Below are positions 46,795 through 54,788 of a DNA stretch of 64,000 nt, piece after piece (position 1 is the first letter of the stretch; each line of letters opens with the position of its first letter). Both the position numbers and the translations under genes were made by a program. Source of the DNA: Anaeromyxobacter dehalogenans 2CP-1 (GTDB taxonomy: Bacteria; Myxococcota; Myxococcia; Myxococcales; Anaeromyxobacteraceae); NCBI RefSeq assembly GCF_000022145.1, contig NC_011891.1, positions 1,178,001 to 1,242,000 on the forward strand, written 5' to 3'. The notes under the pieces are model-generated. The model ran no database searches. It saw only the letters and a program-made list of their open reading frames with translations, and was not told where the DNA came from.

Positions 46795-46998
46795 GCACCT
46801 GGCGCGCGCACGATTTCGAGCGCGTCCTCGGGGACCTGGTGCCGGAGTCAGTCGGGACCTGGGGACCTGGTGCCGGAGTCAGTCGGACCTGGTGCCGGAG
46901 TCAGTCGCGGACCTGGTGCCGGAGTCAGTCGGCAAGAATCGGCAGTTCGGACGGGACCTGGTGCCGGAGTCAGTCGGCAAGAATCGGCAGTTCGGACG
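46795..46998 (+). repeat. Array of 22-bp direct repeats plus 36-bp copy of transposase coding sequence
   Basis: Five copies of a 22-bp unit ending CCTGGTGCCGGAGTCAGTCG begin at 46833, 46864, 46886, 46910 and 46955. Copies 4 and 5 are each followed by the same 23-bp tail beginning GGCAAGAATCGGCAG (46931-46953, 46976-46998), so a larger 45-bp unit has duplicated. Immediately upstream, 46795-46830 is identical over 36 bp to 47150-47185 inside the following transposase gene. Spacers are 0-23 bp and no leader or cas gene is present, so it is not a CRISPR array. Location next to a RAYT-like gene suggests REP-like repeats of that transposase. Confidence 0.85.
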
Positions 46999-47097
46999 CG
47001 CCGCGGACCTCGGTCCGTTCTGCGGCCGCGCCTCACGGTGCGACTCCCACGAACATCCCGTCAGGTCGTTGGCACCCGAGTTGCGTAGCGCCCGGGG

Positions 47098-47766
47098 ATG
47101 GCCCGCATTCCGCGCTTCGCGCTGGTGGAGCGCGACTCGAGCAATCACTGCACCTGGCGCGCGCACGATTTCGAGCGCGTCCTCGAGGAGGCCGGCGCGA
47201 CGGACAAGTTCCTCGAGCTGCTCGGTCGGTACAAGGAGAAGTACGGGATCGAGATCAACTCGTACTGCCTGATGGGCACGCACCCGCACGTCACGTGCAC
47301 GACGAGGCGCGACCAGGAGCAGTTCAGCCGCTTCTGGCAGGTGGTGAACGGGCAGTTCGCGCGCTGGTACAACAGGCGACGCGACCGGCGCGGCCAGGTG
47401 GTCATGGAGCGGATGCGTTCGCCGCGGATCCAGGCCGAGGGCGCGCATCAGCTGACCGTGATGCGGTATGGCGACCTCAACCCGGTCCGCGCCGGGCTGG
47501 TGAGGAGTCCGAAGGACTGGAAGTGGTCGAGCTACCGGCACTACGCCTTCGGTGAGCCGGATCCGCTCATCGATGACGCGCCGGAGTACCTCGCGCTCGG
47601 AAAGACCGGGCCTCAACGCCGGAAGGCCTACCAGGCGCTGTTCGCGCTGCCGCTCTCGGAGTCGCTGCGCACGAGGCGGATCGACCTGGTCGAGTATCCG
47701 TTCGTCGGCGACGCCCACTGGGTGATGCATCGGCTGGACGTGGCCGGGCTGTCGCCTCCGGATTGA
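47098..47766 (+). CDS. IS200-like/REP-associated tyrosine (RAYT-type) transposase
   Basis: A 222-aa Y1 transposase-like protein. It begins MARIPRFALVERDSSNHCTWR and contains MGTHPHVTC, the H-x-H (HUH) metal-binding motif, QFSRFWQVVNGQFARWYNRR, and YGDLNPVRAGLVRSPKDWKWSSYRHY, which carries the family's NP-x-RAG-x-V and SSY elements. These proteins nick single-stranded DNA at short repeats. No terminal inverted repeats of an IS are visible, and an array of repeats lies directly upstream, as is usual for domesticated RAYT genes. Confidence 0.85.
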   Translation: MARIPRFALVERDSSNHCTWRAHDFERVLEEAGATDKFLELLGRYKEKYGIEINSYCLMGTHPHVTCTTRRDQEQFSRFWQVVNGQFARWYNRRRDRRGQVVMERMRSPRIQAEGAHQLTVMRYGDLNPVRAGLVRSPKDWKWSSYRHYAFGEPDPLIDDAPEYLALGKTGPQRRKAYQALFALPLSESLRTRRIDLVEYPFVGDAHWVMHRLDVAGLSPPD

Positions 47767-49180: not shown

Positions 49181-49780
49181 CTAGTAGGCGACGATGGTCA
49201 GCGTCGCGGCGGTGCTGTCGCCGAAGAGGAGCGCCTCCTGAGGGCGCTCCACGACGACTCGCCATGAGCCGGCTGGCAGGAGGTCGCTCTGCTTCATGTT
49301 GAGGACGGACCTGGCAGATGGCGCTTGCCGATACGTGAACTTGCCGCCCGTCACCTTCTGGCGGGCCTTGCTGTACGCCTGCCAGTCCTGCTCATCCATC
49401 AGGTAGACGTTCACCGACTTCGGCGCCGCGGCGACCGTTACCTCGACCTTTCCCTGCGTCGGGAGCGAGAAGCCGTAGTACTTGGCTGCGCCCTCATCAA
49501 GCGACACGGTTTCTGAAACGACTGTCTCCGGGCCGGCAATCGCGCTGCGCACGCTCGCGCCCTGGTTCACGACCTTGAACGCGACGTAGCCTGCGCCAGC
49601 GAGCAGCAGGAACAGGACTAGGGTGAATGGCCGAATGCCGTTCTTGGCCTTCACGGGTTTCACGGGCGAGGGGGAGGCCGCGGCAGACGCCACCGTCGGC
49701 ACGGGCGCGCCGCATTACGGGCACGCCGCCGCCTTGTCCGAAACGTCCCGCCCACACTCCGAGCACCTCACGAGCGCCAT
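49181..49780 (-). pseudogene. Zinc-ribbon membrane protein with in-frame TAA at codon 22
   Basis: From ATG 49780 (GGAGGG about 9 nt upstream) the frame reads MALVRCSECGRDVSDKAAACP, then TAA (49717-49715), then CGAPVPTVASAAASPSP and on to 49181. The two Cys pairs (CSEC and CP-stop-CG) are a normal zinc ribbon with one residue replaced by a stop. Downstream come a linker, one transmembrane helix (FTLVLFLLLAGAGYVAF) and a 115-residue external domain. A TAC, AAA, CAA or GAA codon could have become TAA by one substitution. Reinitiation at GTG 49702 would give a 173-aa protein lacking the ribbon. Sequencing error cannot be excluded. Confidence 0.75.
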
Positions 49781-49844: not shown

Positions 49845-49934
49845 ATGTCGAATGTGAAGCTGTCCGACCAGAGGCTTCGTCGTAGAGCGACGGCACACGG
49901 ACTCAAGTCCGTAGCGACTAGGAGTCCTTGTTGA
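49845..49934 (+). other. Possible gene remnant (29 codons)
   Basis: ATG 49845 opens a short frame, MSNVKLSDQRLRRRATAHGL then KSVATRSPC and TGA. The RLRRRA...HGLK pattern resembles the N-terminus of small chromosomal hypothetical proteins that usually continue for another 40-50 residues. No ribosome-binding site is obvious. It overlaps the end of the split zinc-ribbon gene. Confidence 0.2.
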
Positions 49935-50802
49935 ATTTGGCGGAGCCACGGTCGCGATGGTCCGCGAGCGGCTCACTGCACTCGCGGAGAACCTCGCCAG
50001 TCGCGGTGCCCACGACTTTCTCGTAGTACCAGGGCGGGTCGCGGTTGCAATCGATGTACCAAGTCTTATGCACCACGCGACCCGAGCCATCCCGGCTCTG
50101 CTCGCGACCGACCTTCTCCTCGGCGACGGGCTCCTTCATGCCGGGACGTTTCAGCTTGAACGCGAGGCCATCGCTAACCGTGCACCTCTCCTCGTAATCG
50201 ACGTGCCAGTTTCGGATGGTGCTCCCGCAGTGTGGGCACGGCGTACGGCCCCGCTGTGCTCGCCTCGGTCGAGGAGGCGTTGCGCGAGGCCTTCGGTGAT
50301 CCGAGGTACGTACCCGCCGGCGTCGAGCTGCGGACCGACCACGGCCCGCAGTACACGGGCGCCGACTGCGCCGCGCTCGTCGAGAAGTGGGGCCTCGTCC
50401 ACACGTTCGCACCGGTGGGCCGCCCGACCGGCAACGCCGTCGCCGAGCGGGTCATCCGGACGATGAAGGAGGAGGTCGTCTGGCTGCGGGACTGGGAGGG
50501 CGCCGACGAGCTGCGCGAGGCGCTCCTCGCCTGGCAGCACCGCTACAACACCCAGCGACCGCATCAGGCACTGGGCTGGAAGACGCCGTCCGAGCACCGC
50601 GCCGAGAAGCTCGGGGGCGGCGTCGAGAGAGCTGCGTAAGAAGTGAAGACCGTGCCGCTCAACTTGCCCGATTTCCGCCGGCGGCACTGTCTTGACAGAG
50701 GGTGGACACTACACAGTGTGGGCACGGCGCCGGCTCGGGAGTCTCCCGGATGTCGGAGGGCAGCGTCGCATGGCACCCGCTGCATTCAGTCCATTCGGCC
50801 AT
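49918..50802 (-). pseudogene. Zinc-ribbon protein gene interrupted by an IS3-family fragment
   Basis: The 5' part runs from ATG 50802 to 50714: MAEWTECSGCHATLPSDIRE then TPEPAPCPH. The 3' part runs from 50243 down to 49918, beginning PCPHCGSTIRNWHVDYEERC and ending SAKFNKDS. Joining them at the shared 16 bases restores one frame of about 132 codons with two C-x2-C pairs (CSGC and CPHC), a small zinc ribbon, and a charged C-terminal domain. The transposase fragment sits between the parts on the opposite strand. This gene and the preceding zinc-ribbon gene lie in tandem on the same strand and may have been functionally related. Confidence 0.85.
50244..50713 (+). mobile_element. IS3-family insertion sequence, 3' remnant (orfB C-terminus)
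   Basis: The frame to 50639 encodes the end of an IS3-type DDE integrase: VELRTDHGPQYTG with the second Asp, GRPTGNAVAERVIRTMKEEV with the catalytic Glu, and YNTQRPHQALGWKTPSEHRA. The first Asp and everything upstream are missing. A terminal sequence GTCTTGACAGAGGGTGGACA ending ACTACA at 50713 looks like the right inverted repeat (ends in CA). The left end is absent: the element starts abruptly at 50244 after 16 bases duplicated on its right side. It is not autonomous. Confidence 0.88.
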
Positions 50803-50889
50803 GGCAGGATGCATCCCGCCCGAAGGCAGGCCCAGCCGAGGCCGCCGAATCGCGACACGGCGCGGCGGCTGCTACCCCGAAAAGAGGAC

Positions 50890-50925
50890 GCCCGTCATCG
50901 CTTTCTCGTGCGATGACGGGCGTTT
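50890..50925 (-). terminator. Intrinsic terminator downstream of tRNA-Pro
   Basis: A perfect 12-bp stem, CGCCCGTCATCG / CGATGACGGGCG, with a 9-10-nt loop. On the minus strand it is followed by CCTCTTTT. It stands about 6 bp beyond the 3' end of the tRNA-Pro segment, and so is that gene's terminator and marks original chromosome. Confidence 0.8.
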
Positions 50926-50930
50926 GAAAG

Positions 50931-50979
50931 TCGGGGCGACTGGATTTGAACCAGCGACCACTTGCACCCCAAGCAGTCG
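50931..50979 (-). other. 3' half of tRNA-Pro(GGG): attachment site (att) of the genomic island
   Basis: On the minus strand the sequence TGCTTGGGGTGCAAG (anticodon GGG with its loop and 3' stem) continues through GTGGTCGCTGGTTCAAATCC (T arm) to CGCCCCGAC (acceptor 3' side). This matches bacterial tRNA-Pro(GGG). Upstream of the anticodon arm the match ends: there is no CGGGGCG 5' acceptor strand and no D arm at the right distance. Only the 3' half is therefore present, as expected at one end of an element that integrated into the tRNA gene. The intact tRNA should lie at the other end, outside this window. The integrase gene starts about 200 bp away. Confidence 0.85.
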
Positions 50980-51178
50980 TACCACTCGGACGCAACCTGC
51001 CGTCACGCTTTGTGAGTAGTATAACACCCGGCGATCATCGGTGATTTCAGCTAGTCTCGCGTCGTCTCACGAGCGCTCGCGTGATACACGAAAAGCGCAC
51101 CCCGGGCGCACCCCGCACCCCAAACGCACCCCGGGTCGGCGGTGGAAGTGGTCGCTCCGAACGCGAAAGTGGTCGCCC

Positions 51179-52579
51179 ATGAAGCACGTGGATCTGTCGA
51201 GCGAGTGGCTGGCGAACTGGAATCCGCGGCGGCGCGAGGAGGTGACGGACCGTCGGTGCCGCGGGCTCGTGGTCCGCGCCGGTCCGAGCGGCGCCAAGAC
51301 GTTCTACCGCTTCACCGACGTTCGTGACCCGGACACGGGCAAGGCGAAGCGCAAGCGCATCGCCCTCGGCAGGTGGTCGGTGGACGGCGGGCGGGGCACG
51401 CTGACTCTGAGCGCTGCGCGCGATGCGTTCCTGAAGGCCCAGGAGGAGAAGCGCGGCGAGGTGGACGGCACCGCAGAGCGGACCGTCGCGCAGATCGCGC
51501 AGCAGTACCGGACTGACATTCTCTCCCACCGCGAGCGCGCGGACGAGGCGTGGAACGTGATCCGCGTGCACGTCGTGGAGGCGCAGCCCGATCCCAAACG
51601 GTTGTCGTTCGGGGAGTGGGTCGCCCGTCAGGTGAAGGCGTCCGATGTGGCGACGGTGGTGCGGCACGCGAAGCGCCAGCGGATGGTCCCCGCTACCACG
51701 CGCAAAGGAGAGATGATGACCCGGCGCATCGGCGGCGCGGGCGCCGCGCGTGTTGTGCTGCGCGAGTTGAAATCGATCTTCGCCCACGCGGTCGAGACGG
51801 GGGATCTCGACGCCTCGCCCGCCGTCGTCGCCAAAACCCGGACGTTCGGCATCCGCGCCACCTCGCGCAGCCGTTACTTGAAGGCAGGGGAGGTGAAGGC
51901 GTTCTTCGACGCGCTCGAACTGACGGCGCTGCTCGACGGCACAGCGAAGCGGCAGCGGCTCTCGCCGACGATGCGGCTGGCGCTCGCGTTCCAACTCTAC
52001 GTGCCGCTCCGGTCACAGTCTCTCATCGGCGCGCAGTGGATCGAGATCGATCTCGACGCGAAGCGGTGGACGGTGCCGCCCGTGGCGGGCCGACTGAAGA
52101 TGCGGAAGGAGGAGCGGGAGGAGGCGGAGGGCTTCGTGGTGCCGCTCCCGTCGACCGCGGTGGCGATGCTAAAGCGGCTGCGCGAGGAGGCGGGCGATAG
52201 CCCGTGGGTCCTGGCGAGCCCGCTCGATCGCAAGCGCCACATCGAGGCCAAGGCGGTCGTCCGCGCCTTGAGCCGCCTCCAGACGGGCGATCGGCTCGCG
52301 CTCGGCTCTCGAGTCACAGTTCATGATCTTCGCCGCACCTGGCGCACGTTCGCGATGGACCTTGGCGTCGACAACGTGACCGCGGAGCGATCGTTGGGCC
52401 ACGTTGCCGTGCTGCGCGCGTCGGGGTTCGGCGGTGCTGCCGACGTATACGGGCGCGCTCAGATGGTCGAGCAGCGTGCGGCAGCGGCGGAGCTTGTGGC
52501 CGCCGCGTTCGATCGCATCCGGCTCGGCAAGGACGCCACTGTGGTGCCGCTGACCGAGCGGGGCGTGATGCCCGCCTGA
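51179..52579 (+). CDS. int: Tyrosine-type site-specific integrase
   Basis: A 466-aa recombinase. Catalytic residues are in place: Arg in LYVPLRSQSLIG (about residue 278), His-x-x-Arg in VTVHDLRRTWRTF (about 382-385), a later His in ERSLGHV, and the nucleophile Tyr in ADVYGRAQM (about 424). The N-terminal part resembles the arm-binding domain of P4-type island integrases (GLVVRAGPSGAKTFYRF, KRKRIALG). ATG 51179 is chosen; the frame is open to 51041 but lacks a good ribosome-binding site. Next to a tRNA 3' end, it is the enzyme that inserted the island. Confidence 0.88.
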   Translation: MKHVDLSSEWLANWNPRRREEVTDRRCRGLVVRAGPSGAKTFYRFTDVRDPDTGKAKRKRIALGRWSVDGGRGTLTLSAARDAFLKAQEEKRGEVDGTAERTVAQIAQQYRTDILSHRERADEAWNVIRVHVVEAQPDPKRLSFGEWVARQVKASDVATVVRHAKRQRMVPATTRKGEMMTRRIGGAGAARVVLRELKSIFAHAVETGDLDASPAVVAKTRTFGIRATSRSRYLKAGEVKAFFDALELTALLDGTAKRQRLSPTMRLALAFQLYVPLRSQSLIGAQWIEIDLDAKRWTVPPVAGRLKMRKEEREEAEGFVVPLPSTAVAMLKRLREEAGDSPWVLASPLDRKRHIEAKAVVRALSRLQTGDRLALGSRVTVHDLRRTWRTFAMDLGVDNVTAERSLGHVAVLRASGFGGAADVYGRAQMVEQRAAAAELVAAAFDRIRLGKDATVVPLTERGVMPA

Positions 52580-53090: not shown

Positions 53091-54788
53091 GTGGATGCAG
53101 GGCGCGCAACGCTGACCGAGGCACTTGACGAGCTGTGTGGCCGTCGGGCGCAGCTCACTGATGCCATTTTCCGCGGCCAGTTCGCCCTGTGGGTCGGCTC
53201 TGGAATCTCTCGTGAGCGCTTTCAGCCTGTTGCTGCGCTCATGACCAGGCTTGTAACCAGTCTCGCGGCGCACGTTGATGTTACGGACCCTGAGTGCCCG
53301 TACCGTGCGGCTCTCGAAAAGATTGCTCGGCATGCCACGACGAAATGTGCGGACTTCACTAATCCGCCGCAAGCGTTCATCGATCAACTGTGCCCGCACT
53401 ACTCGAAGGTTCTTGAGGAGGACGTTCACCTTGCGGCAGGAGATCGCTCGCTAGTCTTTGATGTGCTCGACCTTCCGCGCATGTACAGCGAGCCGGCTGT
53501 ACTCCCAGACGCGGAACATCGGTTCATTGCGCTACTTGTCATGGAGGGCGTGGTTCCGCGCATCCTGACTACCAATTGGGATGGGCTAATCGAGGCGGCG
53601 TACCGGGATGCTCAGGATGGCCACGCGCCGCCTCTTCCGGTAGTCATCTCGCCTGCCGACCTCGACGGAGTCGAACCGGGCCCGCGCCTCGTCAAGTTTC
53701 ATGGATGCGCGGTTCGAGCCGCGAAACATCCCGACGCAAAGCAGCATTTTGTGGCCACTCAGAAGCGGATCAACGAGTGGAACATGTCTGAGCAGTTTCT
53801 CGCAATCCGCGACGAGGTTCGGACGGCTGTACGGTACTTCCCTGCGCTCTTGGTCGGGCTCTCCGCTCAAGATGTAAACATTCAAATGCAGTTCGAGCAG
53901 GCCGTCGTAGGTCGCGAGCCGTGGGCGACGTGGGCTCCTTCGCGCGCGGCGTTCGCGCAAGCTGAAGCGGGAGAGGCTCAGGAACGAATTCTCAAGACGC
54001 TGTACGGCAAGCACTACGCTGGGGCCAACGCAGGCCAAATCGAACGAGCGGCGACGATTGGGCTGTACGCGAAGCCGCTTTTCGGCGCGCTTTACTTCGA
54101 GCTCGTATTTCGAAAGCTGCTCGCGATCTGCGACGCGGGACAAGAGGCATTCACGCCTGAGCAGCTTCAATTCGTGCGGGCGTGGTTACTTAATACGCAG
54201 AACCGGATCCGCGATCACTACGACCGCTTGCCTCCGTCCGAGCGATGGGTGCGACTCTCGGAATGTCTCCCGAGCCACATCGCGCATGCTCACGGCCTAT
54301 ATAGGCACTACAGACCGATTTCGCGGGAGACTGCATACGTTCCCGTGTCGCGAATCCAACTCGGTCACCCGCAGGGTGCGCCGGAGGACGCCAGGGCTCT
54401 CCTTTGCCTTGCCGCGCTGTCACACGGAGACACGCTTGGTGCATGGTCGGCAGAGCCGCCACGCCCGGGCAGCGACGCTTTTCATGCGTTCCTGAAGATC
54501 GGCCTTAGGCAATGGCGCATAGTTGTGGTTCGCGACTCGCTGCTCGCGATGCATCGTCTGGAAGCCTCTATGCTGTCGGCTCACGCGGCGGAAACCGTTG
54601 CTGTATACCCGACCGGGTCGAGGCCGCGAAAGCGTAGGAGGGGACTAGGGGCGACGCTTCCTTCTCGGGGCCGTTCGGCCGGCCCCTACGAAGTGTGGTT
54701 CGACGAAATCGCGTCTGAGCCTTACACACCTGCTCAGATGGTTGAAGAGCTGAAGCTCGAGCTGCTCGGACTGCCCCATGCACCATAG
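53091..54788 (+). CDS. lmuA: SIR2-domain effector protein, Lamassu LmuA-like
   Basis: A 565-aa protein starting at GTG 53091. An N-terminal SIR2-like domain is visible: NAD-binding loop GSGIS (36-40), TTNWD (160-164) with the conserved Asn and Asp, and KFHG (202-205) with the catalytic His. Bacterial SIR2 effectors of this kind destroy NAD+ to stop phage growth. The remaining 350 residues are mainly helical and lack a recognised motif. It overlaps the next gene by 11 nt; the order effector, small protein, SMC-like ATPase matches Lamassu (DdmABC) loci, so this is read as a Lamassu-Sir2 effector. The assignment rests on architecture, not on alignment. Confidence 0.78.
   Translation: MDAGRATLTEALDELCGRRAQLTDAIFRGQFALWVGSGISRERFQPVAALMTRLVTSLAAHVDVTDPECPYRAALEKIARHATTKCADFTNPPQAFIDQLCPHYSKVLEEDVHLAAGDRSLVFDVLDLPRMYSEPAVLPDAEHRFIALLVMEGVVPRILTTNWDGLIEAAYRDAQDGHAPPLPVVISPADLDGVEPGPRLVKFHGCAVRAAKHPDAKQHFVATQKRINEWNMSEQFLAIRDEVRTAVRYFPALLVGLSAQDVNIQMQFEQAVVGREPWATWAPSRAAFAQAEAGEAQERILKTLYGKHYAGANAGQIERAATIGLYAKPLFGALYFELVFRKLLAICDAGQEAFTPEQLQFVRAWLLNTQNRIRDHYDRLPPSERWVRLSECLPSHIAHAHGLYRHYRPISRETAYVPVSRIQLGHPQGAPEDARALLCLAALSHGDTLGAWSAEPPRPGSDAFHAFLKIGLRQWRIVVVRDSLLAMHRLEASMLSAHAAETVAVYPTGSRPRKRRRGLGATLPSRGRSAGPYEVWFDEIASEPYTPAQMVEELKLELLGLPHAP

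Follow-up and report, generated by a model that had tools for sequence, protein, structure and literature searches.

A 16-bp direct repeat around an IS3-type remnant in a zinc-ribbon gene of Anaeromyxobacter dehalogenans, and the target duplications of related elements

How does a remnant of an IS3-type element come to lie between two exact copies of a 16-bp sequence, when the duplications made by IS3 elements are given, according to subgroup (IS2, IS3, IS51, IS150 and IS407 are those named), as 3, 4 or 5 bp (PMC10045372)? The question is raised by a zinc-ribbon gene in the window, by which we mean a stretch of 64,000 nucleotides from the genome of Anaeromyxobacter dehalogenans 2CP-1 (NC_011891.1, positions 1,178,001 to 1,242,000; a complete genome of 5.03 Mb in a single contig). 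A sequence-only reading had described the repeat, which proved to be exact as described, and had taken its length to mean that no simple insertion could have been involved. The features of the locus are listed in Table 1.

Table 1. Features of the split zinc-ribbon gene and its insert, in window coordinates
Feature	Position	Strand	Basis
Zinc-ribbon gene, split, 136 codons	49918..50814	-	Frame restored by joining the flanks
Zinc-ribbon gene, codons 1-28	50730-50814	-	
Zinc-ribbon gene, remaining codons	49918-50243	-	
Left target-duplication copy, CAGTGTGGGCACGGCG (plus-strand letters), 16 bp	50228..50243	.	Sequence
IS remnant, 470 bp	50244..50713	+	Sequence; full L035 element is 1452 bp
Probable IS left tip, TAC or TACGG, fused to transposase interior	50244..50248	+	Left tips of L035 and L039
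OrfB transposase, C-terminal 130 codons	50247..50639	+	rve_3 match; relatives
51-codon ORF left by the break	50659..50814	-	Two CxxC pairs kept; the final 17 residues are read from the IS
IS right end TGTCTTGACAGAGGGTGGACACTACA, abuts the repeat	50688..50713	+	Similar ends in L002 and L035-L038
Right target-duplication copy, 16 bp	50714..50729	.	Sequence

The split gene, its insert and its neighbours

When the insert and one copy of the repeat are removed, the joined flanks give a frame of 136 codons from the ATG at 50814, or of 132 codons from an alternative internal ATG at 50802; a full frame is therefore restored as had been proposed, the length of about 132 codons given for it being that from the internal start. 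Two CxxC pairs are present in the joined protein, and the repeat includes the second, CPHC (codons 29-34, APCPHC, are inside the duplicated 16 bp). The best Pfam match of the protein is Zn_ribbon_9 (E 0.0036), no Pfam family being matched at cut-off. Since CPHC is part of the duplication, both pairs survive in the 51-codon ORF that the break leaves, and this ORF matches Zn_ribbon_9 only at E 0.02, under the cut-off. We conclude that the broken zinc-ribbon gene is an ordinary IS casualty.

Two plasmid records were matched by the zinc-ribbon protein. In one, a Thermomicrobium roseum plasmid, a frame can be aligned with residues 11-131, across the join and with the insert absent (32.5% identity over 89%); the gene as annotated there (WP_012643296.1) has a start that falls after the join, and the aligned part before the join is in the same open frame, where upstream ATGs are present. 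On a Rhodococcus qingshengii plasmid, an unannotated frame (L051:2001-2234) near IS110 and IS30 transposase genes matches residues 60-134, the C-terminal half, at 43.8% identity. The whole protein had no relative in the other 194 of the 195 phylum genomes searched, its C-terminal part matched only the window's own genome among 60 near genomes, and comparison with viral contigs and phages gave zero matches. A homologue containing the insert, which the sequence-only reading had named as evidence that would count against it, was not found in these searches, and the one relative that spans the join does so without the insert.

The insert carries a PF13683 (rve_3) domain, and the IS3 model was its best match; the earlier view that the gene is split by an IS3-type remnant was right. 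Of the motif residues, as we assign them, the OrfB fragment retains D (in TDHG) and E (in AERV), and the part with the first D is gone. No second DNA-level copy of the insert was found in the complete 5.03-Mb genome, in which the insert itself is the sole match.

The right end of the element reads ...CACTACA, and the same sequence or a variant of it is present at L035-L038 and at L002 (right end ...GGGTGGACACAACA), a locus of G016, which is a genome of the window's family. Since these right ends are alike, the window element stops at 50713 and the repeat is flush with it from 50714. Dinucleotide shuffles of the 2-kb region contained a 16-bp direct repeat in 5 of 1000 cases, so that length alone would give a frequency of only about 0.5%; it is because the repeat is flush at the right end of the IS that chance is excluded. 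At the nucleotide level 39 of the 60 relatives searched had matches, almost all of them short GC-rich stretches, and G016 alone was used. L002 has about 0.35 kb extra between the transposase and the right end (L002:311-592), with a 93-codon open frame; this may represent either a passenger gene or an insert of unrelated origin.

At the left junction the sequence reads GGCG/TACGGCCCC. In all six relatives compared, the residue before GPAVLA is H, Q, D, A or E and never Y, and the simplest reading is therefore that TAC, or perhaps TACGG, represents the element's left tip. These bases, which match the left tip of L035, are probably what remains of the left end of the IS, and the earlier statement that this end was missing is thus probably not wholly correct. 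That the left bases of the repeat belong to the IS interior was also considered and was rejected, as relatives encode KDQ, KSQ, KAQ or KPQ ahead of this point, and L039 encodes TQQ.

The next gene downstream of the zinc-ribbon gene (49181-49780, minus strand) is likewise a zinc-ribbon gene, and its second CxxC is interrupted by an in-frame TAA (CP-stop-CG); its product, with X at the stop, matches Zn_Ribbon_1 just above the cut-off, and two adjoining zinc-ribbon genes are broken by different means. On the other side, a perfect 14-bp inverted repeat with an 8-bp loop (50888-50923), terminator-like by eye, separates the zinc-ribbon gene from a tRNA-Pro 3' fragment (50915-50975) that lies beside a tyrosine integrase gene (51041-52579). 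An intact, equally oriented tRNA-Pro(GGG) at a distance of about 77 kb (G000:C1 near 1306205) suggests that the fragment and the intact gene are the two att sites of a genomic island. Near the integrase is a gene for a SIR2_2 domain protein (53091-54788, plus strand); SIR2_2-type genes are often found in defence islands. The region 46795-47189 contains tandem repeats of GGACCTGGTGCCGGAGTCAGTCG, of which two 45-nt copies are identical, and a 40-nt repeat with copies 355 bp apart, the second copy falling within a gene that matches Y1_Tnp (IS200-like) weakly at 47098-47766, slightly under the cut-off.

Long and short duplications around related elements

The nearest full-length relative of the window remnant, 69-72% identical over the shared part, is at L035 (VGRA01000144.1, a Deltaproteobacteria MAG that recurs, at an identical contig position and score, as G133 of the window's order). 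It is a complete element with the left start TACGGTGATCCC, and it is flanked on both sides by CACCAACTACCAGCTG, matching at 16/16 positions and flush. At L039 (a Planctomycetota MAG; left start TACCCTGTTGCC) the duplication is inexact, 14/16, and at L037 and L038, two of the four full-length members of the near subfamily, it is absent. The near subfamily is small, with one or two matches in each of seven genomes; it was found in three of 147 class genomes and four of 195 phylum genomes (both counts including the window's own), and in two of 392 genomes drawn from the phylum of G199. Terminal inverted repeats, compared ungapped, are weak (9/22 in L035, 12/22 in L094 and 16/22 in L095), and L035 and L039 escaped a search for ends in which such repeats were a condition.

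Element ends were surveyed at 24 loci, comprising the four near relatives, 16 plasmid loci and four further loci. Further loci outside the 24 were scanned for long repeats only, with ends not fixed; from one of these scans the loci cut by contig ends (L049, L058, L063, L066, L072, L084 and L087) were left out. Exact flush duplications of 14-16 bp were seen at four of the 24 (L035, L094, L095 and L103) and the 14/16 duplication at one (L039). Duplications of 4 bp were seen at 11 (L096, L101, L106, L108, L109, L110, L112, L113, L071, L107 and L111) and of 3 bp at two (L104 and L077), single calls of 3-4 bp being weak alone because for the 4-bp elements the ends were placed at the point where related copies cease to align and by a leading T. 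The remaining six (L037, L038, L097, L105, L086 and L089) had 2 bp or less. An IS left end starting with the 16 bases of the window repeat, likewise named beforehand as contrary evidence, was present at none of the 24.

Among the plasmid loci, the duplications are 14 bp at L094, on a Skermanella mucosa plasmid, and at L095, on a Caballeronia plasmid; L103 and L097 are two copies on the Rhodobacter xanthinilyticus plasmid pEJ01. This plasmid has six full copies, all identical. As a segment that includes two of the insertion sites is duplicated, they represent four distinct sites, with duplications of 15 bp (CGAAATCGTCGACGA), 14 bp (CGTGCTGGACCAGC), none and none. The separate insertions with 14-16 bp, including that of the window, thus number seven. 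When the left flank of one locus was set against the right flank of another, a 14-bp repeat occurred in 2 of 1260 pairs and none was longer, the repeat test to which this control belongs having taken in L066 with a wrong span; in a second mismatched-locus control 0 of 272 pairs had a repeat of at least 14 bp. Loss of the duplication through recombination between copies or adjacent deletion is described as common (PMC11708052), and may be the cause at the loci without one.

The plasmid records found with L094 numbered 18 (38 places), of which 15 were read, at one place each except for pEJ01. The plasmid relatives that were read are 43.6-52.2% identical to L094, the long and the short class alike. 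The window fragment and the L035 OrfB each matched at least 5000 plasmid records, all those listed being below 60% identity, and no transposase relatives in viral contigs were confirmed.

It can be seen that full-length relatives have flush duplications of 14-16 bp, and the earlier inference from 16 bp to something other than a simple insertion therefore does not hold. The same relatives bear on two other ways of producing the locus. A broken end with 16-base overhangs could, after fill-in, have captured a stray IS fragment through non-homologous end joining; the element does lack its left part, and the window genome has Ku beside a LigD primase-polymerase domain protein (L060:3856-5718), so that end joining may be available to the host. 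However, such a capture predicts neither the exact right end nor the flush 14-16-bp duplications of relatives with complete ends, and with L035 and pEJ01 both disfavouring it we rejected it as very unlikely. Alternatively, a usual 3-5-bp insertion could have been followed by template switching during an aborted precise excision, which lengthened the repeat to 16 bp and took the left part away. This could leave the observed structure, with the repeat beginning exactly at the right end of the IS, but it needs two switches and the relatives with a complete left end already show 14-16 bp; we give it very little credence.

Deletion between the repeats would give the exact frame, in agreement with the earlier proposal that recombination could restore the gene, and might be taken to mean that the repeat is a site of programmed, reversible excision that switches the zinc-ribbon gene on and off. 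The transposase is truncated, however, and the two other related transposases found in the genome are 27% and 30% identical to it; moreover the duplications of the relatives, at the loci with ends read, are mutually unrelated in sequence. On these grounds we rejected this idea, which seems barely credible. The two repeats, 486 bp apart, would rather be a passive substrate, with restoration amounting to no more than the rare slippage that any such repeat allows.

The transposase lineage and known families

With the IS3 model (NCBIfam NF033516, cut-off 160) the L035 OrfB scored 182.3 bits, and L038 (166.0) and L094 (167.7) also passed; L103 (156.1), L109 (148.2), L095 (144.1) and L106 (125.2, partial) fell under the cut-off, and the window OrfB fragment, which is partial, scored 96.1. 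The IS481 cut-off of 224 was reached by none, the top score being 122.1 (L038), and for L095, L103, L109 and L106 the IS3 score was still above the IS481 score. All four full-length near relatives have two overlapping frames with OrfB at -1 to OrfA, and in L035 OrfA has HTH_Tnp_1 and OrfB has HTH_21 and rve. In these respects the lineage resembles the IS3 family and, judged by its transposase, it is IS3-type. It differs from that family in its duplications of 14-16 bp (16 bp in the window and L035, 14/16 in L039) rather than 3, 4 or 5 bp. With respect to the 5'-TG...CA-3' ends of the family, the right ends finish CA, and the left tips are TAC, not TG, in L035 and L039 and TG in L094, L095 and L103.

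In an OrfB tree of 31 rows (L066, L067 and L069 excluded), the window, whose row fills 42% of the columns, groups with L035, L037, L038 and L039 (support 95/99); the branch length of L075, 10, is absurd. One set of 17 rows (83/100, drawn open) takes in both the 14-15-bp plasmid elements and the elements with 4 bp, and within it eight Methylobacterium and Roseomonas elements form a set (98/97, drawn open) made up of six with 4 bp, L104 with 3 bp and L105 with none; L107, L111 and L071, all with 4 bp, stand beside it. The near subfamily and the plasmid group have no supported joining branch, so that either one or two origins of the long class would be compatible with the tree.

IS481 elements have a single frame, whereas this lineage has two, and the L035 OrfB scored only 113.8 against the IS481 cut-off. 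There is nevertheless a likeness in the duplications, as most IS481 elements are recorded with 6 bp and some with about 15 (ISMac4 and ISA0963-1, 15 bp), and IS1202 duplications are listed as 5-6, 15-17 and 24-29 bp (PMC10045372). The paper on ISAjo2 splits IS1202 by duplication into 3-5 bp, over 15 bp and none, and thus, as in our lineage, short and long classes occur within one family; as described there, the ISAjo2 group has a single transposase of 441-457 aa and 5'-TGT ends, which sets it apart (PMC10132070). IS481EU of parabasalids has discrete classes of about 4, 15 and 25 bp, in a eukaryotic host, and some of its families are recorded as mixing classes (PMC10045372), unlike the copies at the four pEJ01 sites. 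A literature search of limited reach brought up no IS3-family element described as having duplications of 14-16 bp. The lineage is unusual in that its transposases score as IS3 while its duplications fall into two classes, 4 bp and 14-16 bp, separated by roughly a helical turn, and it would add IS3-type transposases to the discrete-class pattern recorded for IS481 and IS1202.

Origin of the repeat and its significance

We consider it very probable that an IS3-type element, from a lineage that would cut its target with a stagger of 14-16 bp, landed in the zinc-ribbon gene with duplication of 16 bp of the target, and that it later lost about 980 bp internally (1452 less 470, given a parent of the length of L035), so that the outermost 3-5 bp of its left end came to adjoin the central part of the transposase gene. 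The outcome would be a dead 470-bp remnant between intact duplications. Insertion of this kind is suggested by the relatives, namely L035 (16 bp, flush), L039 (14/16), L094 and L095 (14 bp) and pEJ01 (15 and 14 bp), and is favoured by the flush right end and the TACGG of the left junction. Against it, TAC could by chance be interior sequence, duplications are absent in L037 and L038 and at two of the pEJ01 sites, that of L039 is inexact, the terminal inverted repeats are weak, and the near subfamily is small. We conclude that the length of the repeat is a trait of a little-known IS3-type lineage.

For DDE transposases the two strand-transfer points are established to lie as far apart as the duplication is long. 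The classes of 4 and 14-16 bp differ by 10-12 bp, which would correspond to about one turn of B-DNA, and the strand-transfer points would accordingly be spaced about one helical turn wider here than in the 4-bp relatives. On balance we favour the view that the spacing of target cuts by IS3-type transposases moves by whole helical turns, such that the rule seen in IS481, IS1202 and IS481EU extends to them as a shared property of the strand-transfer complex.

A long repeat flanking an IS3-type remnant need not, then, signal an odd recombination event. Duplication length is used in sorting IS families and mirrors the geometry of strand transfer, and IS3-type elements whose transposases are about half identical but which fall into the 4-bp and 14-16-bp classes are natural pairs, which could serve to locate the residues or domains that add a helical turn of target DNA.
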